A stretch of 64,000 nt of DNA from an uncultured Anaerolineae bacterium (lineage in GTDB: Bacteria; Chloroflexota; Anaerolineae; Anaerolineales; Villigracilaceae): contig CAIJPN010000017.1 in assembly GCA_903822545.1 (NCBI GenBank), forward strand, positions 62,001-126,000, read 5' to 3'. Positions 6,358 to 23,779 of this stretch are shown in pieces (position 1 is the stretch's first letter; each line of letters opens with the position of its first letter). Under the pieces are notes generated by a model. It saw nothing but the letters and a program-made list of their open reading frames with translations. It ran no database searches and had not been told where the DNA came from. A program made the translations under genes and the position numbers.

Positions 6358-6359
6358 GC

Positions 6360-6432
6360 GTAGGTCAGGCTTGTAGCCTGACTTACCGACCATAAATGGT
6401 ATTTGAAATGGCAGGCTAAAAACCTGTCGTAC
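6360..6432. repeat. Two adjacent short palindromes in the gap after the phosphoesterase
   Basis: The first is GTAGGTCAGGCT / AGCCTGACTTAC around a 3-nt loop (6360-6386). The second (6411-6432) is a shorter GGCAGGCT / ACCTGTCGTAC pair. They share the GTAG...TTAC termini seen in other repeats of the window and may act as a weak terminator before the permease gene. Confidence 0.6.
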
Positions 6433-6464
6433 TCAGAAATAGCAACCCAAAGGAGACAGCACCC

Positions 6465-8102: not shown

Positions 8103-8113
8103 TGATCACCCAA

Positions 8114-8139
8114 CCCCCTTCCCTTAGCCGGGAAGGGGG
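8114..8139. repeat. CCCCCTTCCC / GGGAAGGGGG palindrome
   Basis: A perfect 10-bp inverted repeat with a 6-nt loop lies in the gap after the permease gene. Its arms belong to the same G/C-rich family found inside murE and the FAD/Fe-S dehydrogenase gene. Confidence 0.7.
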
Positions 8140-8163
8140 CCCGGTTCAAAAAGGAAGATGTCC

Positions 8164-8922
8164 ATGGCTACTCCTGCCCCTGAAATTCTCACCGAGATGC
8201 ACAGGCTGATCGAAGCCGCGCACGAAGAAAAGCTGCACTTGCGCCTGATTGGTGGCCTGGCCGTGCGTGTTCACAGCCCCAACGCTGAGCGCGAGCACTT
8301 CAAGCGCGACTATCCCGATATGGATTTTGTCATCTACAAAAAAGAACGTCGCCGCCTCGAACCCTTCTTTTCCAAAATGGGCTACTCTGGAGATCGCACC
8401 TTCAACCTGCTCAACGGCGACCGTCGCCAGATATTCTTTGACACCAACGGCCATCGCATCGATGTCTTTGTGGGCGATTTCGAGATGTGCCATAAACTGC
8501 CCATGCGCGACGACCGCCTTAAAACCCATCCCATCACCGTTCCGCTGGCCGAACTATTCCTTTCAAAAATCCAGATCGTCGAACTCAACCGCAAAGACGC
8601 CCTCGACCTGATCGCCCTGCTGCTTGATAACGAAGTCGGCTTCCGCGATGAAAACATCGTCAGCATCGAGCGTATCACCCGTCTGTGCATCAAAGATTGG
8701 GGTCTCTACAAAACCCTGACCATCAACATCAGCCGCCTCGAACACCTGCTGGTCAACGAAAACCCCGGCCTGAGCGAAGAAGAACGCCAGACCGTCCTGC
8801 GCCGCATCAACACCATTCGCCGCGCGCTCGATAAAGTTAACAAACCCATTTTGTGGAAGCTGCGCGACAAGGTTGGAACCCGTCTAAAGTGGTACACCGA
8901 AGTGGAAGAAGTCAACCGTTAA
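8164..8922 (+). CDS. Nucleotidyltransferase-fold protein of unknown role
   Basis: A 252-residue protein. A GGLAVRVH block near residues 28-35, an acidic pair in DMDFVIY and a later RIDVFVGDF strand match the minimal nucleotidyltransferase (MNT-like) fold, in which these Asp residues bind metal and NTP. The C-terminal half is mostly helical and basic. The ATG at 8164 was preferred over 8158 because AAGGAAG sits 6 nt before the former and directly abuts the latter. Adenylation of a small molecule or of a protein are both possible; no antitoxin-like partner gene is adjacent. Confidence 0.65.
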   Translation: MATPAPEILTEMHRLIEAAHEEKLHLRLIGGLAVRVHSPNAEREHFKRDYPDMDFVIYKKERRRLEPFFSKMGYSGDRTFNLLNGDRRQIFFDTNGHRIDVFVGDFEMCHKLPMRDDRLKTHPITVPLAELFLSKIQIVELNRKDALDLIALLLDNEVGFRDENIVSIERITRLCIKDWGLYKTLTINISRLEHLLVNENPGLSEEERQTVLRRINTIRRALDKVNKPILWKLRDKVGTRLKWYTEVEEVNR

Positions 8923-8986
8923 ACCGGCTGGATTTCGCCCGCCCTGCCGCCTGCCTCCAAAACCTGGAGCTTTTGGACTCCTGACT

Positions 8987-9637
8987 ATGGCCTCCAACAT
9001 CTCCTGGCGTTGGATTTCCCTCATGCCTATTCGCCACTGCCTTATCATCCTGCTCATCCCAACAATCCTCCTGGCCTGTAGCCCGGTTCCTGCACCTGTA
9101 GCTGCTCCCGCGCCGGGCCAGCGCCTCCTGAGCCTCGACTTTCCCACCACCATCCGCGCCGGTGATACGGACGTGGTTTACCTGACCCTCGAACTGGATA
9201 CCAGCGGCAATCTGACTGCCACCGCCCAAAGCACCGGGAACGCCGCGTCTGCCCAGACCATTCAAATCCCCAATGTGTACGACACACACAACATTTTGGC
9301 CGAATCGCGGCTTGAAATGGCCGGGGTGATCGTGCGCCCCGATGCTACCGTCAGCGAACCGCTGCTGCCGGGCCAAAAAGTGATTTTCTTTTGGAGTCTC
9401 CAGCCACTGGATGTGGGTACGTATCGAGGCCGGGTCTGGTTTTACTTGCGTTTTGTGCCCAAAAACGGCGGCGATGATACGCGTGTGGCGCTCTCAGCTA
9501 TGGAAATCGAGCTTGAATCCCGCTCGTTTTTTGGGTTAAGTGCCAGTGTGGTGCGCTGGCTGGGGCTGGGTGGTATTTTTATCAGTGTAATGCTCGGCCT
9601 GCCGCTGCTGGTGGATGCTCTGCGCAGGTCAAGATAA
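8987..9637 (+). CDS. Predicted lipoprotein with C-terminal membrane helix
   Basis: A 216-residue protein with a lipoprotein signal ending in ILLAC, so the cysteine should be lipidated at the outer face of the membrane. It is followed by a proline/alanine-rich linker, a beta-rich domain and a second hydrophobic helix near the C-terminus (about 193-210) with a basic end. The signal would be of more usual length if translation began at the ATG at 9023; neither start has a good ribosome binding site. Family not recognised. The next gene, nuoA, has its own upstream region. Confidence 0.6.
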   Translation: MASNISWRWISLMPIRHCLIILLIPTILLACSPVPAPVAAPAPGQRLLSLDFPTTIRAGDTDVVYLTLELDTSGNLTATAQSTGNAASAQTIQIPNVYDTHNILAESRLEMAGVIVRPDATVSEPLLPGQKVIFFWSLQPLDVGTYRGRVWFYLRFVPKNGGDDTRVALSAMEIELESRSFFGLSASVVRWLGLGGIFISVMLGLPLLVDALRRSR

Positions 9638-9907
9638 TACCTGCCTTGCGGCCGGGCAAAATCAGCGTTGGCGCATGTTCCTCGCAACGGCGAGAGCGGT
9701 TACGGGTTATTTGTTTGTGAAAAATCAGGCAAAATGTCTCTATAACGGGTTTTCTGGGTCGGTGGAATTCGCCCATTCCTGCCTTAAAAATATGACATAT
9801 ATCATGTGATTTCCTTACATGGGTAAGTTACGCTCTCCAAAACCCTTATGATACAATCTCCCTGACCCTGTTTGTGATAGAACGCATAATCTTCGCGAGG
9901 AGTAGCT
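9638..9907 (+). promoter_or_regulatory. Upstream region of the nuo operon
   Basis: A 270-nt gap without a gene. A likely -10 (TACAAT, 9852-9857) lies about 50 nt before nuoA, with only a weak -35 match (TACGCT, 9829-9834). Upstream, ATGACATATATCAT (9791-9804) is nearly palindromic and could be an operator; no regulator can be named. An SD-like GAGGAG precedes nuoA. Confidence 0.4.
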
Positions 9908-10264
9908 ATGCTCAATCCCTGGATGTTTGTTGGTCTCTTCCTGATTGTGGGGCTATTAATCCCGGTAGCAGCGATTGTTCTTTCGGCGCTGCTGGCTCCG
10001 CGCAAGCCGAATCCGATCAAGCTCAGCACGTATGAGTGCGGTATGGAGACGGTTGGCGATAGCTGGGTGCAATTTAAAGCGCAATATTACGTTTTTGCGC
10101 TGGTTTTCCTCATCTTTGATGTGGAAACTGTGTTTCTCTTCCCCTGGGCGCTGGCGCTAAATGCGCTGCCGTTTTTTGCCGTGGTGGAGGGGATTGTTTT
10201 CATTCTCATCCTGATTGCGGGGCTGTCATTTGCCTGGCGTAAAGGGATGCTTGAATGGGTGTAA
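9908..10264 (+). CDS. nuoA: NADH-quinone oxidoreductase subunit A
   Basis: A 118-residue membrane subunit of complex I with three helices and the conserved KLSTYECGMETVGDSW loop, which lies near the quinone channel. Length is normal. In most bacteria nuoB, C and D follow directly; here nuoH is next, after a 71-nt gap with a terminator-like hairpin. The hydrophilic-arm genes must therefore be elsewhere. Confidence 0.95.
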   Translation: MLNPWMFVGLFLIVGLLIPVAAIVLSALLAPRKPNPIKLSTYECGMETVGDSWVQFKAQYYVFALVFLIFDVETVFLFPWALALNALPFFAVVEGIVFILILIAGLSFAWRKGMLEWV

Positions 10265-10281
10265 TGTCCAAATAAGCATTG

Positions 10282-10320
10282 AAAGGCTGAAAGGCTCGTC
10301 CTTCCAGCCTTTTATTTGTT
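10282..10320 (+). terminator. Terminator-like hairpin between nuoA and nuoH
   Basis: AAAGGCTG (10282-10289) can pair with CAGCCTTT (10305-10312), or the shifted AAAGGCT (10290-10296) with AGCCTTT (10306-10312). Either is followed by TTTATTTGTT. It could cause partial termination or protect nuoA mRNA. Confidence 0.5.
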
Positions 10321-10335
10321 ACTAAGGAGCATTCC

Positions 10336-11541
10336 ATGAATTTTTGGACAGATCCAATTAAGTTGGCGTTCGACGGGTTGATGGGGCTGTTTAGCAGCTG
10401 GGGCATGGCTGCCGATGCGGCGGCAGTGGTCATCAACTTGCTCGGCATTGTGGGTTTGATCAGCGCCGTTATGGTGCTGGACATCCTGCTGGTGTGGGTG
10501 GAACGCAAAGTGGTGGCGCGTTTCCAGGATCGCCTTGGCCCGAACCGGGTCGGCCCCTGGGGCATTCTCCAGCCGTTCCCCGATATTATCAAGCTCATCT
10601 TGAAGGAAGACATCACCCCGGCTGGCGCGGATAAGGTGGCTTTTAACCTGGCCCCTATCCTTTCGCTCGGTTCTGTGCTCTTCCTGTGGGCGGTTGTGCC
10701 GTTGGCGGCCACCATCTACGGTGTGGACTTGAATGTTGGCCTGCTTTACCTGGTGGCAGCTGGCGCGGTTGGCACGCTTTCTATCATTATGGCGGGCTGG
10801 TCGTCGAACAACAAGTATGCGTTGGTGGGGGCTTACCGTATGGTAGCCAACATGATTTCTTACGAAATCCCGATGGTGGTGGCGCTGCTGATTCCGACCA
10901 TGCTGGCCGGGACGATGAGCATCAAGGGTATCTCCGATTTCCAGTTGGAGCACGGGCTGTTCTTCTTCTTGACCCCGCTGGGTGCGCTCTTGTTCCTGAT
11001 TTCGGCCATCGCCGAATTGGGACGCTCACCCTTTGACCTGAACGAAGGCGAATCGGAAATTGTGGCCGGCTTCCACATTGAGTATAGCGGTATGAAGTTT
11101 GGCCTGTTCTATGCGGGTGAACTGCTCCATGCTTTCACATTTGGCGCGTTTGTGGGTGTGTTGTTCTTTGGTGGATATGCCTTCCCGCTTCCCTGGGGCG
11201 CGACGAATGCCTTTGTGGCGGTTTTCAACGTCTTGTTTAAGGGCATGGTTTTCTACTGGGTTATCATGTGGGTGAAATACACGGTTCCACGTATTCGCAT
11301 TGACCACATGCTGGCTTTCAACTGGAAATTCCTGGTTCCGGTTTCTTTCACGTTGCTGATGGTGACAGCCATCTTCCACAGCCTGCTTAAGGATACCGGT
11401 TTCTGGCCTTACACCCTGGGCATGTTCCTGGTTAACCTTATCTTCGGGTGGCTCCTGCTTGAGATGCTGCGTTCACGCGGCAGGGCTGAGCGGGAACAGG
11501 CCGAAGCGCCGTCCACAGCCGCCCAAGCGGCGCATCATTAG
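10336..11541 (+). CDS. nuoH: NADH-quinone oxidoreductase subunit H
   Basis: A 401-residue, about eight-helix subunit that forms most of the quinone-binding chamber and links the peripheral and membrane arms of complex I. Recognisable blocks are VWVERKVVARFQDRLGPNRVG (first cytoplasmic loop) and SPFDLNEGESEIVAGFHIEY, the acidic loop facing the quinone site. The C-terminus carries an extra Ala/Glu-rich tail ending AAHH. AAGGAGC precedes the ATG. nuoI, often found after nuoH, is absent; nuoJ follows after 14 nt. Confidence 0.95.
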   Translation: MNFWTDPIKLAFDGLMGLFSSWGMAADAAAVVINLLGIVGLISAVMVLDILLVWVERKVVARFQDRLGPNRVGPWGILQPFPDIIKLILKEDITPAGADKVAFNLAPILSLGSVLFLWAVVPLAATIYGVDLNVGLLYLVAAGAVGTLSIIMAGWSSNNKYALVGAYRMVANMISYEIPMVVALLIPTMLAGTMSIKGISDFQLEHGLFFFLTPLGALLFLISAIAELGRSPFDLNEGESEIVAGFHIEYSGMKFGLFYAGELLHAFTFGAFVGVLFFGGYAFPLPWGATNAFVAVFNVLFKGMVFYWVIMWVKYTVPRIRIDHMLAFNWKFLVPVSFTLLMVTAIFHSLLKDTGFWPYTLGMFLVNLIFGWLLLEMLRSRGRAEREQAEAPSTAAQAAHH

Positions 11542-11555
11542 AGGAGCGAAACGTT

Positions 11556-12065
11556 ATGGGAGCTCAAATTCTTTTCTTCCTTTGCGCGGCGCTCATCCTC
11601 ATCTCTGCCATTATGGTGGTGACTGTCCGTAACCTGATCCACGCTGCCTTGTGGCTGATCGCAACCCTGTTTGGCGCAGCGCTGCTGTATGCCTCGCTGG
11701 ATGCCAGCTTCATCGCAGTGGTGCAGGTGGTGGTTTATATCGGCGCGATTGCGATTATGTTCATCTTCGCGGTCATGCTGACCCGTCGTGAACTGCTTAT
11801 CAAGACCGACCAGACCAACGCAAATTGGCCGCTGGCACTCGGATTGAGCGCAGTGATGCTGGTGGCGCTGGGATACGTCATCGGTGGTTTTGGCGTGACG
11901 CTTAACACCACTCCGGCAGCCATCCCCGCCGGGGTTGATCCGCTGACTTTGCTGGGCAAAGCCCTGCTTGCGCCTGAAGCCTACGTACTGCCGTTTGAAG
12001 TGGCCTCAGTGCTTTTGCTGGCGGCGATGGTTGGCGCGGTCTACGTTGCGATGAACAAAAAGTAG
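11556..12065 (+). CDS. nuoJ: NADH-quinone oxidoreductase subunit J
   Basis: A 169-residue, five-helix subunit with the VVYIGAIAIMFIFAVML segment. This corresponds to the TM3 region with the pi-bulge involved in conformational coupling of proton pumping. GAGGAGCG lies before the ATG. It is in tight tandem with nuoH and nuoK. Confidence 0.93.
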   Translation: MGAQILFFLCAALILISAIMVVTVRNLIHAALWLIATLFGAALLYASLDASFIAVVQVVVYIGAIAIMFIFAVMLTRRELLIKTDQTNANWPLALGLSAVMLVALGYVIGGFGVTLNTTPAAIPAGVDPLTLLGKALLAPEAYVLPFEVASVLLLAAMVGAVYVAMNKK

Positions 12066-12075
12066 GAGGATGCGC

Positions 12076-12384
12076 ATGATTCCGCTGTCCTGGTACCTTT
12101 TCCTTTCCGCAGCACTGTTCTGCATCGGCCTGTATGGTGTCCTGGCGCGTAAAAACGCCATCGCCATCTTGCTGGGTGTTGAATTGATGCTCAATGCGGT
12201 CAATATCAACCTTGTGGCCTTCTGGCGTTATCTTGACCCGACGCAGATGGGCGGCCAGGTGTTTGCGATCATCGTCTTCGCGGTAGCTGCTGCCGAAGTG
12301 GCTGTTGGCCTTTCCCTGGTCATCTCCATTTACCGCACGCGCGGAACGGTCGTCGCCGATGAACTCGACATGATGAAGTGGTAG
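12076..12384 (+). CDS. nuoK: NADH-quinone oxidoreductase subunit K
   Basis: A 102-residue, three-helix subunit. Conserved glutamates lie in GVELMLNAVNINL and in VAAAEVAVGL; both are part of the hydrophilic axis of the membrane arm. The ATG at 12076 was chosen over 12070 because the AGGAGGA runs into the first ATG and leaves normal spacing only for the second, which also gives the usual family length. Confidence 0.93.
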   Translation: MIPLSWYLFLSAALFCIGLYGVLARKNAIAILLGVELMLNAVNINLVAFWRYLDPTQMGGQVFAIIVFAVAAAEVAVGLSLVISIYRTRGTVVADELDMMKW

Positions 12385-12393
12385 GAGCACATT

Positions 12394-14571
12394 ATGGCGA
12401 CTGAAACGTTAATCTGGCTTGTGCCACTCCCGCCGCTACTGGCGTTTTTCCTGATCGTGCTTTTCACCAACAAGAGCAAGGCTCTCAGCCACAGCATCGC
12501 TGTTGGCGCCGCCTTCCTTTCCTGGCTTGCGGCTATGCTGATCTTTGCTGCCGCGCTGGGCCGGGAACACCTTGGCGAGGATCCTTTTACCTCGCAAATC
12601 AACTGGCTGCCGACTGGTGATACCTTCCTGAAAATCGGCGTGATGATTGATCCGCTCTCAGCGGTGGTGCTTTTCTTTGTTGGCTGGACTGTGCTGATGA
12701 TCTTCCTGTACAGTGTTGGCTATCACAATTTCGGCCAGCCCGCAGGCGATCATGACCACAAAGGCCTGCCGCCGCATGGCGCGACCGTCACAGATGAACA
12801 TGGACACAAACATACCGTCCTGTCAATCGAACCGATGTATAGCCGCTTCTTTGCTTTTATCGGCCTGTTTGCCTTCGGTATGTATACCCTGGTGGTTTCT
12901 GATAACTTGCTGACGCTCTTTGTTGGCTGGGAAATCATGGGGCTGTGCTCGTACCTGCTGATTGGCTTCTGGTTTGCCAAACCATCTGCCCGCGCTGCGG
13001 CCATCAAGGCCTTTATGACCACCCGTGTCGGTGATGTGTTTATGCTCATGGGTGTGGCCTATCTCTATTCGATGACCGGCACCCTTTCTTACCGTGCGAT
13101 TTTCTACAATGAAGAAGTGCTTCATCATCTGGCTACCACTGCCGCGCCGCTCTTTGGCATGTCGGCTGCCGGGCTGATCGGTCTGCTGCTCTTCATCGGC
13201 ACGGTGGGAAAATCAGCCCAGTGGCCCCTCCACATCTGGCTCCCAGACGCGATGGAAGGCCCGACCCCTGTCAGCGCTATGATCCATGCAGCCACGATGG
13301 TTTCAGCGGGCGTCTATATGGTCATCCGCATCTTCCCGCTCTTCACAGCTGATTGGGATCACCATTCGCTGACCACCACAATGAGCATCATCGCCTTCAT
13401 TGGTGCGTTCACCGCCATCTTTGCGGCTACCATTGCCGTAGCGCAGAACGACATCAAGAAAGTGTTGGCTTACTCTACTATCTCACAACTCGGCTTCATG
13501 ATTGCCGCACTCGGCATGGGCGCATATATCGCTGCCGCCTTCCATCTGGTTACTCACGCCTTCTTCAAGGCGCTTCTTTTCCTTGGTTCCGGCTCGGTCA
13601 TCCACGGTATGGAGCATGGTGTCATGCACACTGGCGACCATCACGTAGACCCGCAAGATATGTGGAATATGGGCGGCTTGCGCAAGAAAATGCCCATCAC
13701 TTTCTGGACTTTCCTCATTGGTGGCTTTGCCCTTTCGGGTTTCCCCCTCGTCACGGCTGGCTTCTGGTCGAAAGATGAAATCCTGGCCGATGCTTTTGCG
13801 CATGGACACTGGGCTATTCTCGCCACCCTGTCTATCGCTGCGCTGATGACAGCCTTCTACACCATGCGCCAGATCACCCTGACCTTCTTTGGTGAACCTC
13901 GCACCAAGGAAGCCGAACATGCCCATGAAACCCCTTGGACAATGACTACCCCGCTGGTGGTGCTCTCAGTCTTCGCGATAGGCTATGGCTGGCTCGGCAT
14001 CCCAGAACATTTCCCTGGCCTGGGTGGCATCGTTCCCAACTGGTTCCATGAATTTGTCGGCGGCACCCTTATTCATCACCCCGAAGCTGTGGCTTTTCAC
14101 TGGGAACCCCTTGCCATTTCCCTTGTCGTTGCTTTTGGCGGACTGGGCTTAGGCTGGGTGGTTTACAAAGATGTCAAAGCCGGTCAACCCGATCCGCTCG
14201 AAAAACCGCTTGGCCCGCTCTACCCCTTCCTGAAGAACAAGTGGTACTTCGACGAATTCTACACGTACTACGTGGTTGGCCCCATGACCTGGGTCTCAGA
14301 AGTTTTCACCTTCCAGTGGATGGATCGCGGTGTCATCGATGGCATTATCCACTCGGTGGCCCAACTTGCACCCGCTATCGGTTCATTCCTGCGCAACTGG
14401 TTCGATAAACCGGTTGTCAACGAACTAATTGGTGATGGCTCTGCAGCTGTTTTCCAGTGGCTTGGACACCAGTTGCGCTTTATCCAAACAGGCCGCCTCC
14501 AGGCCTATCTCATCAGCGCGGTTGCCACCTTCCTTGTGGTTGGCGCAGCGCTCTACTACTTCGGTTTCTAA
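12394..14571 (+). CDS. nuoL: NADH-quinone oxidoreductase subunit L, with extended C-terminal lateral-helix region
   Basis: A 725-residue distal antiporter-like pump subunit, about 110 residues longer than E. coli NuoL. Pump residues are present: the GWEIMGLCSYLLIGF glutamate and the VGKSAQWPLHIWLPDA lysine. Two additions stand out. Residues about 112-147 form a histidine-rich loop (HDHKG, HGHKH). Near the C-terminus, in the amphipathic lateral-helix region, a 27-residue segment starting WMDRGVID (about 642-668) is followed by a similar one starting WFDKPVVN (about 669-695) before the final anchor helix. An insertion at this place is the reported hallmark of complexes with a fourth pump subunit, which fits the two nuoM genes that follow. 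Confidence 0.93.
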   Translation: MATETLIWLVPLPPLLAFFLIVLFTNKSKALSHSIAVGAAFLSWLAAMLIFAAALGREHLGEDPFTSQINWLPTGDTFLKIGVMIDPLSAVVLFFVGWTVLMIFLYSVGYHNFGQPAGDHDHKGLPPHGATVTDEHGHKHTVLSIEPMYSRFFAFIGLFAFGMYTLVVSDNLLTLFVGWEIMGLCSYLLIGFWFAKPSARAAAIKAFMTTRVGDVFMLMGVAYLYSMTGTLSYRAIFYNEEVLHHLATTAAPLFGMSAAGLIGLLLFIGTVGKSAQWPLHIWLPDAMEGPTPVSAMIHAATMVSAGVYMVIRIFPLFTADWDHHSLTTTMSIIAFIGAFTAIFAATIAVAQNDIKKVLAYSTISQLGFMIAALGMGAYIAAAFHLVTHAFFKALLFLGSGSVIHGMEHGVMHTGDHHVDPQDMWNMGGLRKKMPITFWTFLIGGFALSGFPLVTAGFWSKDEILADAFAHGHWAILATLSIAALMTAFYTMRQITLTFFGEPRTKEAEHAHETPWTMTTPLVVLSVFAIGYGWLGIPEHFPGLGGIVPNWFHEFVGGTLIHHPEAVAFHWEPLAISLVVAFGGLGLGWVVYKDVKAGQPDPLEKPLGPLYPFLKNKWYFDEFYTYYVVGPMTWVSEVFTFQWMDRGVIDGIIHSVAQLAPAIGSFLRNWFDKPVVNELIGDGSAAVFQWLGHQLRFIQTGRLQAYLISAVATFLVVGAALYYFGF

Positions 14572-14586
14572 AAGGGGAGTGGACAA

Positions 14587-16155
14587 ATGGAATTCATGAG
14601 CACTCACCTGTTGACCAGCATCCTGTTTTTCCCGGTTGTCGTGGCGCTGGTTCTCCTGTTCCTGCCCAGTGATCAGCAAAAACTGATTCGTTGGACCGCT
14701 TTTATCGGCAGCCTGATCCCGCTCGGACTCACCATCTGGATGTGGACTCAGTTCAACTCAACCGCCGCCGGGTTCCAGTTCCAGGAACGCTATCCCTGGT
14801 ACGATGCCCTCGGCTCCAGCTTCCACATAGGCATCGATGGCATTTCCTTCAGCATGGTTTTCCTGACCACGCTGCTGACGCCCATCGTCATCCTGGCTTC
14901 TTTTGGGATCACGGATCGGGTCAAAGCCTACATGATGCTGTTCCTTTTCCTCGAAATGGGCATGCTCGGCGTCTTCATGGCGCTCGACCTGCTGATTTTC
15001 TTCGTCTTCTGGGAACTCGGTCTCGTCCCGATGTACTTCCTCATCAACCAGTGGGGCAGCCCCAAAGGTGAACGCGAAGTCAACAGCATTTTTGGCAAGT
15101 TCACCATGCCTTCGCGCAACTACGCCTCGTTCAAGTTCATGATTTACACGATGGCGGGTTCGCTCGGCCTGCTTCTGGCAATCCAGTTGATCGGTGTTCT
15201 CTTCGGCACCTATGACCTGCTGACCCTCTACGAGAAGTGGACCAGCCTGACAGACGGAACCCTGCTGGGGATGCCGGTTGCCCAGGTTAAGACGGTGGCC
15301 TTTTGGGCGTTTGCGGTTGCTTTCGCGCTGAAAGTGCCGGTTTGGCCCTTCCACACCTGGCTGCCCGACGCCCACACCGATGCCCCGACTGCTGGCTCGA
15401 TGATCCTGGCGGGCGTGCTGCTCAAACTGGGCGCGTATGGCTTCATCCGCCTGGTGCTGCCGCTCTACCCGGCTGAATCGGCCCAATATGCGGGCGCACT
15501 GGCTTTCCTGGCGATGATGGCAATCGTTTTTGGCGCTTTCGCATCATACGGCCAGACCGATTTCAAGCGGCTGGTGGCTTATTCATCGGTCAACCACATG
15601 GGTTTTGTGTTGCTCGGCATTGCTGCCGCAGCGGCCTCTGCCGGGACGATGGACGCCCACATCGCTATGAGCGGTGCTGTGCTCCAGATGTTCAACCACG
15701 GCCTGTCATCGGCTGGTATGTTCTTCCTGGTCGGTGTGATCTACGACCGAACCCACACCCGTAACCTGGACGATTTCGGCGGCCTGTTCCCGCTGGTTCC
15801 GGTCTATGGCACGATCATGATCTTCACCAGCATGGCTTCACTCGGTCTGCCAGGTTTGAACGGCTTCGTCTCCGAGTTCATGGTGGTGCGGGGTGCTTTC
15901 CCCGTCCTTACCGTTTACACTGCGCTCAGCATGATCGGCTTGCTGTTCACGGGCGCTTATATTCTCAAGGGAATCAAGAAGGTGCTGCATGGCCCGCTCA
16001 ATGAACATTGGGCGCACGGCGAGCATCGCCTGACTGAAATCAACACCCGCGAGATTCTTGTCATGGCTCCGCTCATGATCCTGATCCTCGTCACCGGTAT
16101 CTGGCCGATGTGGATCCTGGATGTGATCAACAAAGCCGTGACCATGTTGTTCTAA
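14587..16155 (+). CDS. nuoM: NADH-quinone oxidoreductase subunit M (first copy)
   Basis: A 522-residue antiporter-like pump subunit with about 14 helices. It keeps all key proton-path residues: Glu143 (FFVFWELG, TM5), Lys249 (FALKVPVWP, TM7), Lys280 (GVLLKLGAYG, TM8) and Glu430 (GFVSEF, TM12). GGGGAGT precedes the ATG at 14587. A second, distinct NuoM follows 13 nt downstream. Confidence 0.95.
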   Translation: MEFMSTHLLTSILFFPVVVALVLLFLPSDQQKLIRWTAFIGSLIPLGLTIWMWTQFNSTAAGFQFQERYPWYDALGSSFHIGIDGISFSMVFLTTLLTPIVILASFGITDRVKAYMMLFLFLEMGMLGVFMALDLLIFFVFWELGLVPMYFLINQWGSPKGEREVNSIFGKFTMPSRNYASFKFMIYTMAGSLGLLLAIQLIGVLFGTYDLLTLYEKWTSLTDGTLLGMPVAQVKTVAFWAFAVAFALKVPVWPFHTWLPDAHTDAPTAGSMILAGVLLKLGAYGFIRLVLPLYPAESAQYAGALAFLAMMAIVFGAFASYGQTDFKRLVAYSSVNHMGFVLLGIAAAAASAGTMDAHIAMSGAVLQMFNHGLSSAGMFFLVGVIYDRTHTRNLDDFGGLFPLVPVYGTIMIFTSMASLGLPGLNGFVSEFMVVRGAFPVLTVYTALSMIGLLFTGAYILKGIKKVLHGPLNEHWAHGEHRLTEINTREILVMAPLMILILVTGIWPMWILDVINKAVTMLF

Positions 16156-16168
16156 GGCGAGGTGCGCA

Positions 16169-17656
16169 ATGCAACTACCAATCCTGAGTGTGATTGTCTT
16201 CACCCCGCTGGTTGCCGCAGTCATCATGCTGATGATGAAGCCGACCATGAAGACCGAAGTGCGCGTCACCGCCCTGGCGGCTGCAACTTTCGATCTTTTC
16301 CTGTCTGGCTGGGTGTACTTTACTTACAACATGCAGGCCGCGGGCTACCAGTTCCTTGAAAAATATTCCTGGCTGCCGCAGTTGGGCATTTCCTACCACG
16401 TCGGCGTAGATGGCATGTCGGCCCCGCTCGTCCTGCTGACGGGCGTGGTCATGTTCACCGGCGTGCTGATTTCGTGGGGCATCGACGACCGTCCGCGCGA
16501 ATTCTTCGCCTTCCTGTTCCTGCTGGCGGGCGGTGTGTTCGGCGTTTTCGTCGCGCTCGATCTGTTCATGCTGTTCTTCTTCTACGAAATCGCCGTTTTC
16601 CCCATGTACCTGTTGATCGCCATCTGGGGCTGGAAAGTCACCCGCGAATACGCCGCGATGAAGCTGACCCTGTACCTGTTCCTCGGTTCAGTCTTTTCTC
16701 TGGTCGGCGCGCTCGCCATGTACTTTGCCAACTACCAGATGCACGGTGTCCTGACCTTCGACATGCTCGAACTGGAAAAAGCCGGTTTCCCGCTGCTCTT
16801 CCAGCAGATCTGGTTCCTGCCCACCTTCATGGGCTTCGCCATCCTGGGCGGTATCTTCCCCTTCCACAACTGGTCGCCTGATGGTCACGTTGCCGCCCCG
16901 ACTGCGGTTTCCATGTTCCACGCGGGCGTACTGATGAAGCTGGGCGCTTTCGCAGCCCTGCGCGTCGGCATTATGCTCCTGCCGCAAGGCGCGCTCGTCT
17001 GGAAAGACCTGATTTTCGGCCTCGCCACCGTCAACGTGATTTACGGCGCTTTCATCGCCATGATCCAGACCGATATGAAGTACGTTATCGGCTTCTCATC
17101 CGTCTCACACATGGGCCTGGTTGCGCTTGGCTTCTCCACCCTCACCCGTGAAGGCATGCTCGGCGCAGGCGTCCAAATGTTCTCCCACGGCGTTATGACG
17201 GCTCTCTTCTTCGCCGCCGTGGGCATGGTTTATGACCGTGCCCACACCCGTCAGATCCCGGAACTCGGCGGCATGATCAAACCACTGCCCTGGGTGGGGG
17301 TCGCCTTCATCATCGGCGGTCTCGTTTCGATGGGCATGCCTGGCTTCTCCGGTTTTGTGGCCGAATTCCCCATCTTCATGGGCGTCTGGAAAACCCAGTG
17401 GGTGGTTGCCATCGCGGCTTCCATCTCCATCGTTATAACCGCAGCCTACATCATCATGGTCATTCGCAAAGTCTTCTTTGGCGAAGTCCCGGCGCACTTT
17501 GAAGGTCACATCACCCCGATCTCGGCCCTCGACAAAGTCGCCATCGTGACCCTGTGCGGTTTCATGGTCGCCCTGGGTGTTTACCCCGCGCTGATGACCC
17601 CCATGGTTTCGCTTGGCGTGCAAAACATCCTGCGCCTGGTGTTTGGAGGTGCATAA
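16169..17656 (+). CDS. nuoM: NADH-quinone oxidoreductase subunit M (second, divergent copy)
   Basis: A 495-residue protein, clearly NuoM-type but not a recent duplicate of the first copy. Glu140 (FFFYEIAVFP), Lys257 (GVLMKLGAF) and Glu399 (GFVAEF) are kept. The TM7 lysine is replaced: the segment reads FAILGGIFPFHNWSPDGH where canonical NuoM has FALK/FAVK, so the lysine position is Leu226. It may be the extra pump subunit of a four-pump complex I, or the copy whose channel works by a different residue set. Overlaps by junction with nuoN, whose ATG follows the stop directly. Confidence 0.92.
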   Translation: MQLPILSVIVFTPLVAAVIMLMMKPTMKTEVRVTALAAATFDLFLSGWVYFTYNMQAAGYQFLEKYSWLPQLGISYHVGVDGMSAPLVLLTGVVMFTGVLISWGIDDRPREFFAFLFLLAGGVFGVFVALDLFMLFFFYEIAVFPMYLLIAIWGWKVTREYAAMKLTLYLFLGSVFSLVGALAMYFANYQMHGVLTFDMLELEKAGFPLLFQQIWFLPTFMGFAILGGIFPFHNWSPDGHVAAPTAVSMFHAGVLMKLGAFAALRVGIMLLPQGALVWKDLIFGLATVNVIYGAFIAMIQTDMKYVIGFSSVSHMGLVALGFSTLTREGMLGAGVQMFSHGVMTALFFAAVGMVYDRAHTRQIPELGGMIKPLPWVGVAFIIGGLVSMGMPGFSGFVAEFPIFMGVWKTQWVVAIAASISIVITAAYIIMVIRKVFFGEVPAHFEGHITPISALDKVAIVTLCGFMVALGVYPALMTPMVSLGVQNILRLVFGGA

Positions 17657-19090
17657 ATGAGCCTCAACTTAATGGCAATCCTTCCTGAAATTCTCGTCCT
17701 GCTGGTCGGCATCCTCGTGCTGGTCTGCGACCCGTTTTTCAAAGATGAAAACCGTCGCGTTGGCCTCGGCTGGTTGACCGCCGGTGGCCTTACCGCCACC
17801 CTGGCAATCAGCCTGTTGGCAGGCCAGCCTGGCCAGCCAGCTTCTGCCTGGGGTGGCATGGTGCGTTACGATTGGCTCTCCTTCGCCTTCAAGATGTTCT
17901 TCATCTTCGCGGCAGCCATCACCGCCCTGTTCTTCATGGATGTAGACAAACTTGGCCGCCGCGCCGAAGCCTACGTTCTGCTGACCGCATCCACCATCGG
18001 TATGAGCCTCATGGCCTCATCGTCCGATCTGGTTATGCTCTACCTGGCCATCGAAACCACCTCCATCCCGATGTATGTTCTCTCTGGCTTCATGCTGGAT
18101 GATCAGAAATCGACCGAGTCTGGTTTCAAATACCTGCTCTTTGGCGCCATGACCTCTGCGGTTTTCCTTTATGGACTTTCGCTGGTCTACGGTTTCGCAG
18201 GTTCTACCAGCTACGAAGTGGTCGCCCTGAAATTCACATCGCTGAACATTGTTTCCGTTGGTGTGCTTTTCCTCATCCTGGTTGGACTTGGCTTCAAAGT
18301 CTCCCTGGCCCCCTTCCATTTCTGGGCCCCCGACACCTACGAAGGCGCTCCATCCCCCGTCGCCGGGGTGTTATCCACCGCATCCAAAGCCGCTGGCTTT
18401 GCCGTGCTCATCCGACTGCTCCTGGTGGGTTTTCCCGCCATGGCTGAACAATGGCAGTTGACGTTAGCAATCATGGCCGCCATCACCATGACGATTGGTA
18501 ACCTGGTTGCCCTGGCGCAAAAGAACATCAAACGCCTGCTCGCCTACTCCTCGATTGCCCACGCCGGTTACGCCCTGATCGGCCTGGTCGCCAACAACGA
18601 ACTTGGCCACCTATCGGTTGTTTTCTATCTCCTGGCATACATCCTGACCAACCTGGCCGCCTTTGGCATAATCACCGCCTTTGGTCGTATTGCTGGCTCA
18701 GATGAAATCCGCGCCTATGATGGGATGAGCCGTCGTTCGCCCTACCTTGCGCTTGCCATGCTGATTGCCTTCCTCTCCCTGGCGGGGATGCCACCTTTTG
18801 GTGGTTTCATCGCCAAGGCCCTGGTTTTTGCCGCAGCAGTCCAGGCTGGCTGGTACTGGCTGGTCTTCGTAGGCATCATCAACTCCATCGTGGGTGTCTA
18901 CTACTACCTCACCACCATGAAGTATGTTTATCTCTACCGCATGGAAGGCGAGAACGAAGAATCCTTCCCAATCCCCATGTCGCGCCCGTACGTGATCGCC
19001 CTGGTTGTGCTCTGCCTGGGCATTATCATGGTTGGCTCCTTCTTCGCCCCCTGGTTTGACCTGGCTGGCAAAGCGGCCATGGGCCTCTAA
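17657..19090 (+). CDS. nuoN: NADH-quinone oxidoreductase subunit N
   Basis: A 477-residue antiporter-like pump subunit, the last gene of the membrane-arm operon. Seen motifs are the YLAIETTSIPMYVLSGF glutamate helix and the GLGFKVSLAPFHFWAPDTYEG lysine helix, plus a lysine in STASKAAGF. GGAGGT lies 7 nt before the ATG, inside the end of the preceding gene, so the two are translationally coupled. A new promoter for the ATP synthase genes follows. Confidence 0.95.
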   Translation: MSLNLMAILPEILVLLVGILVLVCDPFFKDENRRVGLGWLTAGGLTATLAISLLAGQPGQPASAWGGMVRYDWLSFAFKMFFIFAAAITALFFMDVDKLGRRAEAYVLLTASTIGMSLMASSSDLVMLYLAIETTSIPMYVLSGFMLDDQKSTESGFKYLLFGAMTSAVFLYGLSLVYGFAGSTSYEVVALKFTSLNIVSVGVLFLILVGLGFKVSLAPFHFWAPDTYEGAPSPVAGVLSTASKAAGFAVLIRLLLVGFPAMAEQWQLTLAIMAAITMTIGNLVALAQKNIKRLLAYSSIAHAGYALIGLVANNELGHLSVVFYLLAYILTNLAAFGIITAFGRIAGSDEIRAYDGMSRRSPYLALAMLIAFLSLAGMPPFGGFIAKALVFAAAVQAGWYWLVFVGIINSIVGVYYYLTTMKYVYLYRMEGENEESFPIPMSRPYVIALVVLCLGIIMVGSFFAPWFDLAGKAAMGL

Positions 19091-19147
19091 AAACAACCTC
19101 CAGGCGGTGGATAGAAAAATCTGCCGCCCGGACAACCTCTCTGCGCG

Positions 19148-19175
19148 TTGACGCAAAAAACCTTTGTGATATAAT
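19148..19175 (+). promoter_or_regulatory. Sigma70-type promoter for the Fo ATP synthase operon
   Basis: TTGACG (19148-19153) and TATAAT (19170-19175) are separated by 16 nt, close to consensus. The first ATG is at 19185, only 9 nt after the -10, so transcription should start at or a few nucleotides before the start codon. There is no room for a ribosome binding site. Confidence 0.8.
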
Positions 19176-19184
19176 CCGCAACCG

Positions 19185-19490
19185 ATGAATGACCCTGTAA
19201 CCCAAACCAGCCGCCAACAGTCCAATACTACGTTTAACATGACCCTGGCGGCAGTAATTGGCCAGGTGGGGTGTTTGACCCCGATCATCATCATTGGAGC
19301 ATTATTCACGGGGCTTTGGCTGGATCGGCAGTTTGAGACCAAGCCACTTTTCACAATCCTGTTCATTGTTGGCAGTGCGCCGGTAGCATTGTATGTACTG
19401 TTTGCAATTGTGCGCTCGGCAACGAAGCGCATTAAGCCACAAATTAACCCCAAATCTGAGAATTTGCCAGAAGGAGGTAGAGAATCGTGA
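19185..19490 (+). CDS. AtpZ/AtpI-family ATP synthase accessory membrane protein
   Basis: A 101-residue protein with two hydrophobic helices (about 19-46 and 58-82) separated by a short WLDRQFETKP loop. Position and topology fit the small AtpZ/AtpI proteins encoded first in ATP synthase operons, which help c-ring assembly or carry Mg/Ca in some species. It likely starts without a leader (see the promoter upstream). Its stop overlaps the GTG start of atpB in GTGA. Confidence 0.75.
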   Translation: MNDPVTQTSRQQSNTTFNMTLAAVIGQVGCLTPIIIIGALFTGLWLDRQFETKPLFTILFIVGSAPVALYVLFAIVRSATKRIKPQINPKSENLPEGGRES

Positions 19491-20461
19491 CTGAAAAACC
19501 TAAACAAAAAGTATGGGGCCGTTGGGTCGTGCTAGCTGCGGTTTTGGTTGGCATTTACTTGTTTTATGTTGCCAAGATCCCGGTAATCATGCCCGAAGTT
19601 TTGCTCCCCGCTGAAGAAGTATTTTCTATTGGCGGCTTTCCCATCACTAACACCCTGATTGCCCTCTTTTTCGTGGATGTGATTGTCTTCCTGATCGCCC
19701 TCAGCGTCAAAAACGCAGTGGCTAGCGGCAAGCAAATCCTGACCGGGATTGCGGGTGCAGTCGAAGCCCTGGTAGACATGCTCTACGGCATGACCGAAGG
19801 AACCGCCGGGAAGTGGGCCAAAGCTGTCTTCCCCTGGTTTGTGACCATCATGTTGCTGGTATTGGTCGCCAACTGGATGGAACTTCTCCCCGGTATTGAA
19901 ACCATCGGCCTGATTCATGAGTCCCCCGAACATGGTGAATATGCCCTCGGTCACTTTGGCCCATTCACTACCATTGAGAAGGTTGCAGAAGAAGGCGAAG
20001 GTCATGGCGGTGGCTATGCCCTCATCCCCTACGTTCGTGTTGTATCATCTGACCTGAACTTCACACTCGCCATAGCCTTGGTTGTCGTTGTGATGATCCA
20101 ATACTATGGTATCAAATCACAGGGGATGGCCTATTTCGGTAAATTCTGGAATACCGGCACAGTCTTCTCAAAGCCCATCTTTGGCGTGATCGATTTCGGC
20201 GTTGGCTTGCTTGAAGTTGTTTCTGAATTCTCGAAAGTGCTCTCGTTTGCCTTCCGTCTCTTCGGTAACATCTTCGCTGGTTCGGTGCTACTGTTCGTTA
20301 TCGGCTCGCTTGTGCCGGTGTTTGCTCAGTCTATCTTTTATCTGCTCGAATTCTTCGTTGGCGCGATCCAGGCTTTTGTGTTTGGCCTGCTCGCCACCAC
20401 CTTCATGGCCCAGGCAACCCAGGGACATGGTGGTGAACATCACGAAGAAGCGCACGCGTAA
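19487..20461 (+). CDS. atpB: ATP synthase Fo subunit a
   Basis: A 324-residue membrane subunit forming the proton half-channels. The essential arginine is in FRLFGNIFAG. It is longer than the usual 240-280 residues: there is an extra N-terminal helix (about 13-31), an acidic/Gly/His loop (about 145-175) and a His/Glu-rich tail (GHGGEHHEEAHA). The start is GTG at 19487 with AAGGAGGT 9 nt upstream, overlapping the previous gene. Confidence 0.93.
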   Translation: MTEKPKQKVWGRWVVLAAVLVGIYLFYVAKIPVIMPEVLLPAEEVFSIGGFPITNTLIALFFVDVIVFLIALSVKNAVASGKQILTGIAGAVEALVDMLYGMTEGTAGKWAKAVFPWFVTIMLLVLVANWMELLPGIETIGLIHESPEHGEYALGHFGPFTTIEKVAEEGEGHGGGYALIPYVRVVSSDLNFTLAIALVVVVMIQYYGIKSQGMAYFGKFWNTGTVFSKPIFGVIDFGVGLLEVVSEFSKVLSFAFRLFGNIFAGSVLLFVIGSLVPVFAQSIFYLLEFFVGAIQAFVFGLLATTFMAQATQGHGGEHHEEAHA

Positions 20462-20464
20462 ATC

Positions 20465-20521
20465 TTCGGGCGGCTTCGCCCGGGAAACACACCATTTCAA
20501 GTGGCGGTTCCCCCGCCCGAA
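20465..20521 (+). other. Alternative hairpins in the atpB-atpE gap
   Basis: TTCGGGCGG (20465-20473) can pair with CCGCCCGAA (20513-20521), enclosing 39 nt. Alternatively CGGGC (20467-20471) pairs with GCCCG (20478-20482). The two forms exclude each other, and the structure ends 25 nt before the atpE start, so it could protect the mRNA or tune the high c-subunit synthesis. Confidence 0.5.
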
Positions 20522-20545
20522 AATATCACTCGGAGGTTATTCAAA

Positions 20546-20773
20546 ATGGAAGCTGATGCTGCAAAATTGGTTGGCGCTGGTTTGGCAATGATTGGCGCAA
20601 TTGGCGCCGGTGCTGGTATTGGTATTGTTGCCAGCGGTGCGGTGCAGGCGATGGGCCGCAACCCGGATGCCACCGGCACGATCCAGACAAACATGATCCT
20701 CGGTATTGCGTTCGCTGAAGCCGTTGCGATTTACTGTCTGGTCGTCGCTCTCCTGATCCTGTTCGTCTTCTAA
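20546..20773 (+). CDS. atpE: ATP synthase Fo subunit c
   Basis: A 75-residue hairpin of two helices forming the c-ring. TM1 is glycine-rich (GAGAGIGIV), the loop has RNPDA, and the ion-binding glutamate is in IAFAEAVAIY. The residue after Glu is Ala and TM1 lacks the Gln of sodium-binding rings, so proton coupling is likely. The ATG at 20546 has CGGAGGT at good spacing; a GTG at 20501 in frame would add residues encoded by the upstream hairpin and is not used. Confidence 0.93.
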   Translation: MEADAAKLVGAGLAMIGAIGAGAGIGIVASGAVQAMGRNPDATGTIQTNMILGIAFAEAVAIYCLVVALLILFVF

Positions 20774-20791
20774 AGAAGACAGGAGGATACT

Positions 20792-21526
20792 TTGGAAGCT
20801 CTTGGTATCAACCCCGGCTTTTTGCTGGTTCAGATTGTTAATCTGATAATTGCATACGTCGTCATTGCAAAGTGGATCGTCGGCCCCATCATGGGCATGA
20901 TTGAATCCCGCCGCCAGACGATTTCCCAGGGCCTTGATGACGCTCGTATCGCGGCGGAAGCCCGCGCGAACGCTGAAAAAGAAGCCCAAAAGATCGTGGC
21001 CGAAGCCCAGGCGAAAGCCGGGCAGGTTGTCCGCGATTCCACCGAACGCGCTGAAGCCGCTGCCCGCGAAGTCAAAGCTGCTGCTGATGCTGAAGCCGCC
21101 AAGGCCGCCGAAAAGAAGCTGGCTGAAGTTGAAGAAGAACGCAGCCGCATTCTCGGTGACATCCGCGGACAGGTGGCTGCCCTCGCCATTGCTGCCACCC
21201 AAAAACTGGTTGGCGAAGCCCTTGATGAGAAGCGCCAGCACACCCTGCTCGATGAATTCTTCTCCGGCGTCAAGGCTGGCAAAGTTGTCGTGCTCGAAGG
21301 CACCTCCGCTTCCGGTCAGTCTGCTGAAGTCACCAGCGCCCTGCCGCTCACTTCTGAAGAGCAGGATTCTGTCAAGAAAGATGTTCTCGCCAAAGCTGGC
21401 GCTGCCGCTGTTTCCTTCCGCGTTGATCCCAGCATCCTTGGTGGCCTGGTCATCAAAGTTGGCGACAAAGTCCTCGATGGCTCTGTCTCCGGCAAACTTG
21501 AAGGCCTGCGCTCCAACTTGCGCTAG
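20792..21526 (+). CDS. atpF: ATP synthase subunit b fused to a delta-type C-terminal domain
   Basis: A 244-residue fusion. Residues about 8-27 are the membrane anchor, about 35-150 an Ala/Glu/Lys-rich coiled-coil stalk (subunit b), and about 175-244 match the C-terminal domain of subunit delta (TSALPLTSEEQ, then VDPSILGGLVIKVGDKVLDGSV and KLEGLRSNL). The delta N-terminal six-helix domain that binds F1 alpha is not visible. The start is TTG at 20792, 4-5 nt after AGGAGGA. A strong terminator follows, so F1 genes are not in this operon. Confidence 0.88.
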   Translation: MEALGINPGFLLVQIVNLIIAYVVIAKWIVGPIMGMIESRRQTISQGLDDARIAAEARANAEKEAQKIVAEAQAKAGQVVRDSTERAEAAAREVKAAADAEAAKAAEKKLAEVEEERSRILGDIRGQVAALAIAATQKLVGEALDEKRQHTLLDEFFSGVKAGKVVVLEGTSASGQSAEVTSALPLTSEEQDSVKKDVLAKAGAAAVSFRVDPSILGGLVIKVGDKVLDGSVSGKLEGLRSNLR

Positions 21527-21543
21527 TTTTTCTCGCTTGACGT

Positions 21544-21583
21544 AAAAAGGGTTTTGACTGAAAATCGTCAAAACCCTTTTTTG
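21544..21583 (+). terminator. Strong intrinsic terminator of the atp operon
   Basis: A perfect 15-bp stem (21544-21558 with 21567-21581) has an 8-nt loop and a T-run. It ends the Fo operon before any F1 gene and only 13 nt before the murE start codon. Confidence 0.92.
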
Positions 21584-21595
21584 TTCCCACTTGCC

Positions 21596-23233: not shown

Positions 23234-23305
23234 TGTTCAAAAGCTGAAGCTGCTACTGCCTTTTCGTAGAATCGATAAACAATCCACTTCCTACCTGCCA
23301 CGCAA

Positions 23306-23779
23306 ATGCTCCACTACCTCCACCGCACCCAACTCATCCCCGCCAGCCTGGACAAAGTCTGGGACTATTTCTCTGACCCGCGCAACCTGGATGAAATGAC
23401 TCCACCTGATATGCGTTTTCACATCCTGACAGACCCCCTGCCGCGCATGTATCCCGGGCAGCTCATCGAATATCGCGTGGAATTCATCAGAGGCCTGCCA
23501 TCTCCCTGGCTGACAGAAATAGCCCACGTTCGCAAACCGGAATATTTTGTGGATGAACAGCGCCTCGGCCCGTACCAGTTCTGGTATCACGAACACAACT
23601 TCCAGCCGGTGGATGGCGGTGTTTTGATGATTGATAAAGTCACCTACTCGATTGGCTTTGGCTTGCTCGGCGATTTCCTGAACGCCATCTGGATTTCGCG
23701 CCGATTGAAGGACATTTTTGATTTCCGCACCCAAAAGATGAACGAGATTTTCCCCGTTGGAGGGAAAGATGCGCGTTGA
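23306..23779 (+). CDS. SRPBCC-fold (START-like) ligand-binding protein
   Basis: A 157-residue protein. The N-terminal HRTQLIPASLDKVWDYFSDPRNL pattern is characteristic of the SRPBCC (Bet v1/START-like) superfamily, with a hydrophobic cavity. The TPPDMRFHILTD and GGVLMIDKVTY segments resemble the coenzyme-Q/cyclase-like branch often annotated as cell-division inhibitor or polyketide cyclase. The ligand is unknown. A TAGAAT box lies upstream at about 23267. It overlaps the following GNAT gene by 11 nt. Confidence 0.75.
   Translation: MLHYLHRTQLIPASLDKVWDYFSDPRNLDEMTPPDMRFHILTDPLPRMYPGQLIEYRVEFIRGLPSPWLTEIAHVRKPEYFVDEQRLGPYQFWYHEHNFQPVDGGVLMIDKVTYSIGFGLLGDFLNAIWISRRLKDIFDFRTQKMNEIFPVGGKDAR

Follow-up and report, generated by a model that had tools for sequence, protein, structure and literature searches.

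The question raised by the complex I genes analysed here is whether the length of the lateral helix of NuoL matches the number of NuoM subunits in the membrane arm. The stretch of DNA in question, called the window throughout, comprises 64,000 nucleotides from an uncultured Anaerolineae bacterium (assembly GCA_903822545.1, contig CAIJPN010000017.1, positions 62,001 to 126,000 of the forward strand), part of a genome of 5.5 Mb, and it carries two nuoM genes in tandem between nuoL and nuoN together with a NuoL whose lateral helix is lengthened. Judged from its genes, the cluster is a complex I of the Chloroflexota-type 2M kind, i.e. with two NuoM, which is a published kind. From a survey of related and named clusters, a long helix would be needed for an extra NuoM, yet is no proof of one.

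The two nuoM genes and the assignment to 2M complex I

The four consecutive genes, all on the plus strand and named NuoL, NuoM, NuoM, and NuoN by NCBIfam, are nuoL (12394..14571; 725 residues with a two-unit lateral helix; 626.8 bits against NCBIfam NuoL, cut-off 556; modelled with AlphaFold2), nuoM1 on the nuoL side (14587..16155; 522 residues; 518.4 bits against TIGR01972, cut-off 263.8), nuoM2 on the nuoN side (16169..17656; 495 residues; 448.9 bits, same profile and cut-off), and nuoN (17657..19090; 393.5 bits against NCBIfam TIGR01770, cut-off 332.6), with intergenic gaps of 15, 13, and 0 bases. The original prediction of two different nuoM genes in tandem was confirmed by these names, by both products scoring above the TIGR01972 cut-off, and by their identity of 34%. 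Given this low identity, there was no recent duplication, and a recent tandem duplication of nuoM was ruled out also by the existence of two old NuoM clades. Chance or an artefact as the source of the locus was likewise ruled out, the frames being open and the order conserved.

Both traits of 2M complexes are present in the window, namely two nuoM genes between nuoL and nuoN and an insertion of about 26-27 residues in the NuoL lateral helix. Such complexes have been described for Chloroflexi with the order nuoLMMN (PMC7117926, PMC8004040, PMC6606698, PMC9040806), and in the Chloroflexi type a fused nuoCD lies with nuoB and nuoI away from the cluster (PMC7117926). In the genome studied here, nuoB (named from its translation), a fused nuoCD (a 612-residue frame), and nuoI were found together on contig C8 (locus L310), apart from the window cluster. 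Nothing in the window distinguishes the cluster from the Chloroflexi type, with which it shares the two nuoM genes between nuoL and nuoN, the longer NuoL, and the separate fused nuoCD, nuoB, and nuoI. With regard to an electron donor other than NADH, queries with E. coli NuoE, NuoF, and NuoG gave zero matches in positions 8001-24000 of the window and in L310; NuoE/F/G-like genes are located on the same contig as L310 (locus L311), and NuoF-like genes on other contigs. The 2M complex I is reportedly owed to Chadwick et al. (2018, ISME J 12:2668), whom later papers credit with it.

The assignment was examined further with phylogenetic trees. In the NuoL tree, which was built without the lateral helix, with 'quick' support, and with 136 of 166 rows (28 close kin were thinned and the duplicates L079 and L183 dropped), the window falls inside a marked set of 26 rows, 25 of which are L-M-M-N. 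The window NuoL and both of its NuoM proteins, whose phylogeny had been proposed as a check, group with those of other L-M-M-N clusters, the rows including Leptolinea tardivitalis and Thermoflexus clusters. Gene order, the lengthened helix, the fused nuoCD elsewhere, and the NuoL and NuoM trees therefore agree on a 2M-type complex I, as had been predicted. As an observation on the side, the NuoL from a record titled as a metagenome-assembled genome of Klebsiella pneumoniae (L261) groups with Acidobacteriota two-NuoM clusters, and this bin is perhaps mislabelled.

The lateral helix of the window NuoL

The AlphaFold2 model of the window NuoL, for which an alignment of 50 NuoL was the input, had a mean predicted local distance difference test score (pLDDT) of 90.1 and a predicted template modelling score of 0.86, and all 50 matches listed in a Foldseek search of the PDB with this model were complex I or NDH-1 entries. 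In the model, DSSP assigned the lateral helix to residues 616-699 (14239..14490, plus strand) as one helix of 84 residues, which would be about 126 Å long if straight, followed by the anchor helix at residues 702-724; the block means of pLDDT along the lateral helix go from 92 down to 55. The lateral helix is thus lengthened in the model as well. When the linker was counted on MAFFT columns, from the D of 'NKWYFDEFY' to the G of 'QTG', its length was 80 in the window NuoL, versus 47 in E. coli and 50-52 in other NuoL with one step.

Two units are found within this helix, residues 642-668 (WMDRGVID...; 14317..14397, plus strand) and residues 669-695 (WFDKPVVN...; 14398..14478, plus strand), the second of which aligns with the NuoL-NuoM contact P564-N566 of E. 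coli. These segment positions, as well as the gene coordinates, had been given exactly in the original prediction. Its claim of two alike 27-residue segments holds for the extra length, whereas the mutual likeness of the segments is weak: 4 of 27 positions are identical, and 0.46% of 20,000 shuffles score as high. The window helix was accordingly rejected as a clear internal repeat by itself. The repeat nature is clearer in a four-unit relative (L183), whose unit pairs share 14, 11, 10, 8, 8, and 5 identities of 26-27.

It has been reported that L565 and N566 of E. coli NuoL, which follow P564, are closest to NuoM and that the helix looks more like a clamp than a piston; with an insert of 6-7 residues between L and M, pumping was only a fifth to a quarter as efficient, whereas the protein tolerated most insertions at other places (PMC3274701). 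P564-L565-N566 align to the V-I-D/N core of the unit motif FDxxVIDG. Since the contact residues fall in the unit core, a NuoL with n units has n copies of the motif, spaced about 27 residues, or 40 Å of helix, apart.

Linker length and the number of nuoM genes

The linker grows by steps of about 27 residues. Among 235 distinct pooled sequences, linker lengths were 17-23 (3 sequences), 47-52 (63), 76-84 (156), 99 (2), and 103-104 (8), with single values of 0, 119, and 131, the 0 coming from a frame cut by the end of its contig. Few in-between lengths were found also among the 30 nearest relatives of the four-unit NuoL.

The numbers of units and of nuoM genes were compared in 166 complete clusters, 100 from relatives and 66 from named organisms (E. 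coli in the latter). The relatives were selected for their similarity to the two NuoL proteins of the window's own genome and the named sample consisted of the best 80 matches listed, and the proportions are not population frequencies. Incomplete clusters (18 of relatives, 12 named) were excluded from these counts, two loci stand in both samples (L079 = L229, L183 = L226), and L091, L093, L094, L095, L265, L288, and L296 were unmeasured or unusable. With units given before NuoM genes, the relatives comprised 0/0 in 3 clusters, 1/1 in 6, 2/1 in 44, 2/2 in 43, 3/1 in 3 (one of which, L208, reads as two units plus a non-repeat insertion), and 4/1 in 1, and the named clusters comprised 1/1 in 26, 2/1 in 17, 2/2 in 22, and 4/1 in 1. 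All 65 complete two-NuoM clusters (one genome counted twice) had two units, as did L379 from a wider search, and the unit count was equal to or higher than the NuoM gene count in every complete cluster examined. Two or more units were also present in 48 of 54 one-NuoM clusters of the relatives and in 18 of 44 of the named sample, and the records of one-NuoM two-unit clusters belong to Ignavibacteriota, Bacteroidota, Calditrichota, KSB1, Zixibacteria, Acidobacteriota, Poribacteria, Bacillota, and Chloroflexota.

The claim that helix length matches the NuoM number did not hold, because long linkers occur in one-NuoM clusters of the same genome, of its relatives, and of other phyla. The second complex I in the window's genome (L008; contig C13, 76000-95999) is encoded by nuoG-H-I-J-K-L-M-N, with one NuoM and a linker of 81. 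In this genome and its relatives, the linker is 80-81 in 21 of the 23 complete one-NuoM clusters of this type and 50-51 in the other two. For the window's own NuoL type, there are 26 complete one-NuoM clusters across the class, with linkers of 76-84, 99, 103, or 131. The extra residues are therefore present in NuoL of single-NuoM complexes of close relatives (21 of 23, and 26 of 26 with linkers of at least 76). The insertion thus fails as a diagnostic sign of a second nuoM, which leaves the placement of the window cluster untouched, as that cluster shows both traits.

At the other end, no unit was found in three clusters that have no NuoM between NuoL and another antiporter-like subunit; their linkers are 23, 23, and 17, the last of which (L089) is unsure owing to a masked base near its end. 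In each of these clusters (L089, L090, and L092), one other antiporter-like subunit accompanies a NuoL-type subunit that has no unit, and L090 is NiFe-hydrogenase-like by Pfam. L090, which comes from the same taxonomic order as the window, shares with it a NuoL-type subunit and one more antiporter-like subunit, but unlike in the window there is no NuoM between them and no unit (linker 23).

The longest helix is that of genome G057 (L183, and L226 at 5807-8038, the same protein), where a linker of 131 residues consists of four tandem units next to a single nuoM. This NuoL is of the window's type, and L226 has the order nuoA-H-J-K-L-M-N followed by ATP synthase genes, like the window neighbourhood. 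A gene for an aldehyde ferredoxin oxidoreductase is located just upstream of the L226 cluster. A model of the four-unit NuoL had low confidence and a break in the helix, with pLDDT below 50 at residues 658-682, 692-700, and 716-719. Three units were read in L174 and L188, and the wider search added families f20, f26, f41, and f68, and f67 with a loop; the nine three-unit loci (L174, L188, L362-L367, and L380) and the four-unit locus are all L-M-N with one NuoM. The linker of 119 in L380 corresponds to three units plus a loop. L194 and L208 (linker 99) were rejected as three-unit NuoL, since they consist of two units plus about 22 non-repeat residues. In L194, L208, and L380, about 16-22 non-repeat residues lie near the start of the lateral helix, and they are unlike the 27-residue units.

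In the NuoL tree, the unit number changed at least 14 times and the NuoM gene number at least 8 times, no direction being inferred. One cluster deep in the two-NuoM clade (L076, genome G035) is without M2 between M1 and N and still has a linker of 79. A frameshifted M2 was sought between these genes, where no separate M2 fragment was found, and from the sequence this looks like a natural loss of M2. Within genus code g51, one genome (G051, L178) has two NuoM and two units and another (G212, L367) has three units with a single NuoM; G212 is 88% complete, and its contamination of 8% makes mixing possible. In one-NuoM groups, the mean pairwise identities of the two units were 0.57 and 0.47 (13 NuoL), 0.47 and 0.41 (16), 0.31 and 0.44 (9), and 0.51 and 0.44 (8). 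Neither unit is thus plainly decaying.

Further nuoM copies were searched for in the window's genome and 30 others and in 16 genomes of which three had already been covered (E <= 1e-40 in both sets), and in 19 named genomes (E <= 1e-30, G057 again included). A single nuoM match was obtained among the 31 genomes in G001, G047, G064, and G078 (two units), G045 (three), and G057 (four), and among the 16 again in G045 and G057 and also in G281 and G327 (three units) and G210 and G092 (two). These ten multi-unit genomes are 82-95% complete, the four-unit G057 being 92% complete. Sharing of NuoM between complexes is therefore possible in many of the genomes searched, and impossible in those with one nuoM, if they lack nothing. 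Among the 19 named genomes, there was one match in the record of G057, in Caldithrix, and in Vicinamibacteraceae, and there were two to five in the others, some of them being NuoL. In a chosen subset of 20 second nuoM copies, each belonged to an L-M-N cluster of its own, whose NuoL has one unit (linker 50-52).

The second NuoM and the lysine of TM7

It has been reported that E144, K234, and K265 of E. coli NuoM are essential (PMC5061711). Our own expectation for a fourth pump, that both window NuoM proteins keep the Lys and Glu residues essential in E. coli, was correct for NuoM1, in which the Glu of transmembrane helix (TM) 5, the Lys of TM7, the Lys of TM8, and the Glu of TM12 are present, but not for NuoM2, which keeps the TM5 Glu, TM8 Lys, and TM12 Glu and has Leu in place of the TM7 Lys. 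The same was observed throughout the 47 two-NuoM clusters of the NuoM tree (FastTree, 181 rows, E. coli NuoM counted twice, long branches flagged). The equivalents of E144, K234, K265, and E407 are all present in M1 of 47 of 47 clusters, whereas in M2 that of E144 is present in 47, that of K265 in 45, that of K234 in one, and the TM12 Glu in all. The lone M2 with K234 is from L257, a Myxococcota record with two K-type NuoM.

NuoM proteins without the TM7 Lys form one side of a single branch in this tree (52 versus 129 rows). That side includes six NuoM which are the sole NuoM of one-unit complexes, in records from Bacillota, Verrucomicrobiota, Gemmatimonadota, and Dehalococcoidia, and E. coli HycC has Leu at this position as well. 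From the distribution of K234 together with this branch, it follows that most of the 2M complexes surveyed join two old NuoM subfamilies. The 'four pumps' of the original prediction are unproven, since M2 is without the TM7 Lys in 46 of 47 two-NuoM complexes; the N-side NuoM may not pump in the usual manner.

Interpretation and alternatives

The explanation that we consider best, with a probability of about 0.7, is that the window encodes a 2M membrane arm, L-M1-M2-N, with a two-unit helix clamp, that units are at least as many as NuoM subunits, and that M2 pumps otherwise than M1 or serves as a relay. The subunits would stand in the membrane in the order L-M1-M2-N with the NuoL lateral helix alongside as a clamp. 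This helix would be made of 27-residue units of about 40 Å, each with one NuoM-docking motif (FDxxVIDG-like), and two units would reach past two NuoM-type subunits, in which case at least as many units as NuoM subunits would be required. M1 has the key pump residues, and M2, as a member of the separate subfamily without the TM7 Lys, would pump by an altered route or mainly pass charge from one neighbour, M1 or N, to the other. Such an arm could move a fifth proton per cycle. Several points weigh against this explanation. The presence of M1 and M2 in one complex is deduced from their genes, and the position of the NuoM contact from sequence alignment alone; in the one-NuoM groups compared above, the lateral helix as a whole shows lower conservation than the part of NuoL before it (0.59-0.72), and the confidence of the modelled helix is 55-79 (block means) across residues 631-700. 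Furthermore, 'one unit, one NuoM' fits the 0/0, 1/1, and 2/2 cases, and about 60 other clusters break it, if one gene means one copy.

These other clusters, with one NuoM and several units, could be explained if a single NuoM is installed in two to four copies (L-M(n)-N), the lateral helix being the ruler that sets n and two nuoM genes being a specialised form. This we regard as a tentative first choice for such complexes, ranked slightly above a helix length unrelated to pump number, with a relic helix next. Multiple copies would account for the stepwise linkers with few intermediates, for unit counts that never fall below NuoM gene counts, for the alignment of the unit motif with the NuoM contact, for extra units kept about as well as their neighbours in one-NuoM groups, for the at least 14 changes of unit number on the tree, and for the ten genomes that have two to four units and gave just one nuoM match; where a second nuoM exists, it belonged in all 20 chosen genomes to its own L-M-N cluster with a one-unit NuoL. 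However, no complex I is known to us that holds the same antiporter-like subunit twice, and each added pump would cost driving force, so that five or more protons would be hard to afford with menaquinone and NADH. Additional NuoM could act as relays; alternatively, the complex could use ferredoxin or operate in the reverse direction, as has been proposed for 2M complexes (PMC6606698). The low confidence and the break in the four-unit helix model, as well as the difference between the near relatives G051 and G212, also speak against multiple copies. A complex I that is generally a variable-length machine, in which the helix is a ruler of 27-residue docking units, the one NuoM of many bacteria with a single nuoM is used in two to four copies, and arms have four to six antiporter-like subunits, is conceivable, but we hold it to be only about one chance in three.

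Alternatively, helix length may have nothing to do with pump number, and the longer helix may anchor further along the arm (towards NuoJ/A/H) or bulge, which we consider rather doubtful. One-NuoM two-unit complexes are frequent in the samples and come from several phyla, E. coli tolerated inserts of 6-7 residues at some helix positions (PMC3274701), linkers with non-repeat insertions exist (L194, L208, L202, and L380), and the four-unit model breaks at low confidence, all of which speaks for such a helix. Steps of whole units, each with the NuoM-contact motif, would not be expected of a free linker, and three or four units, which add 80-120 Å to the usual length, would overshoot the heel of a normal arm. 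In addition, pumping efficiency in E. coli fell to a fifth or a quarter when 6-7 residues were added between L and M (PMC3274701). It is unlikely that the long helix is a disappearing leftover of complexes that lost their second nuoM. In the tree, single-NuoM clusters of the window's type are intermingled with two-NuoM clusters, and the gene neighbourhood of L226 is that of the window; L076, deep in the two-NuoM clade, is without M2 and keeps a long linker, and an evolutionary transition has been named as a possibility (PMC9040806). Against this, the two units are conserved to about the same degree, the extra one has been retained across many families, and lineages whose clusters have no second nuoM include some with three and four units. 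Least probable by far is the borrowing of an extra NuoM from another complex I of the same cell. A second complex I that includes a nuoM gene is present in many of these genomes, that of the window among them, but only one nuoM match was obtained in the ten genomes mentioned above, and likewise in Caldithrix and Vicinamibacteraceae (completeness not given). For the window itself, the two-unit clamp beside L-M1-M2-N remains the preferred explanation.

Neighbouring genes

The membrane-arm genes form a run on one strand, nuoA, H, J, K, L, M1, M2, N (9908-19090), and ATP synthase genes come next. The four genes upstream of nuoL, all on the plus strand, are nuoA (9908..10264; NCBIfam NuoA is the top match with 136.9 bits, below its cut-off of 163), nuoH (10336..11541; NCBIfam NuoH, 301.9 bits, cut-off 305, and tblastn with E. 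coli NuoH), nuoJ (11556..12065; NCBIfam NuoJ is the top match with 100.5 bits, cut-off 154, and tblastn with E. coli NuoJ), and nuoK (12070..12384; NCBIfam NuoK, 134.8 bits, cut-off 128). Downstream of nuoN, at 19185-21526, are atpI and atpE (read from translations), atpB, and a gene for a fused b-delta subunit, in which Pfam ATP-synt_B and OSCP lie within a single frame of 244 residues. The gene beyond it looks like a murE-type ligase (read from its translation), and hence the F1 genes are not adjoining.

Comparison with known systems and significance

The window shares with the canonical nuo cluster of E. coli the subunit families, the contact motif between lateral helix and NuoM, and the key residues of M1, and E. 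coli differs in having one unit (linker 47) and one NuoM. A precedent for a long helix with one NuoM is found in complexes I_1 and I_2 of 'Candidatus Manganitrophaceae', which have the same NuoL lateral-helix insertion despite canonical gene content (PMC9040806). There it is reported for one family as a curiosity, whereas the present survey covers several phyla, three and four units, and nuoM counts per genome. Lateral-helix steps or multiple copies of one NuoM were not found in the titles and abstract openings of the literature searched, whose coverage does not extend to the 2018 description of 2M; several nuoM gene copies per genome in Cyanobacteria (PMC8235220) are a different matter. What the survey adds to the descriptions of 2M complexes in the later papers cited above is the lengthened helix of two to four units without a second nuoM and the M2 without the TM7 Lys.

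A helix insertion by itself should not be taken as the mark of a 2M complex. In most of the 2M complexes surveyed, the second NuoM is without a lysine reported to be essential in E. coli. Clusters with one nuoM and several units make two questions testable: does the lateral helix only clamp the arm or does it determine how many pumps there are, and what number of protons do unusual complexes I move? If complex I is indeed a variable-length machine, gene counts would have hidden widespread shifts in proton stoichiometry.

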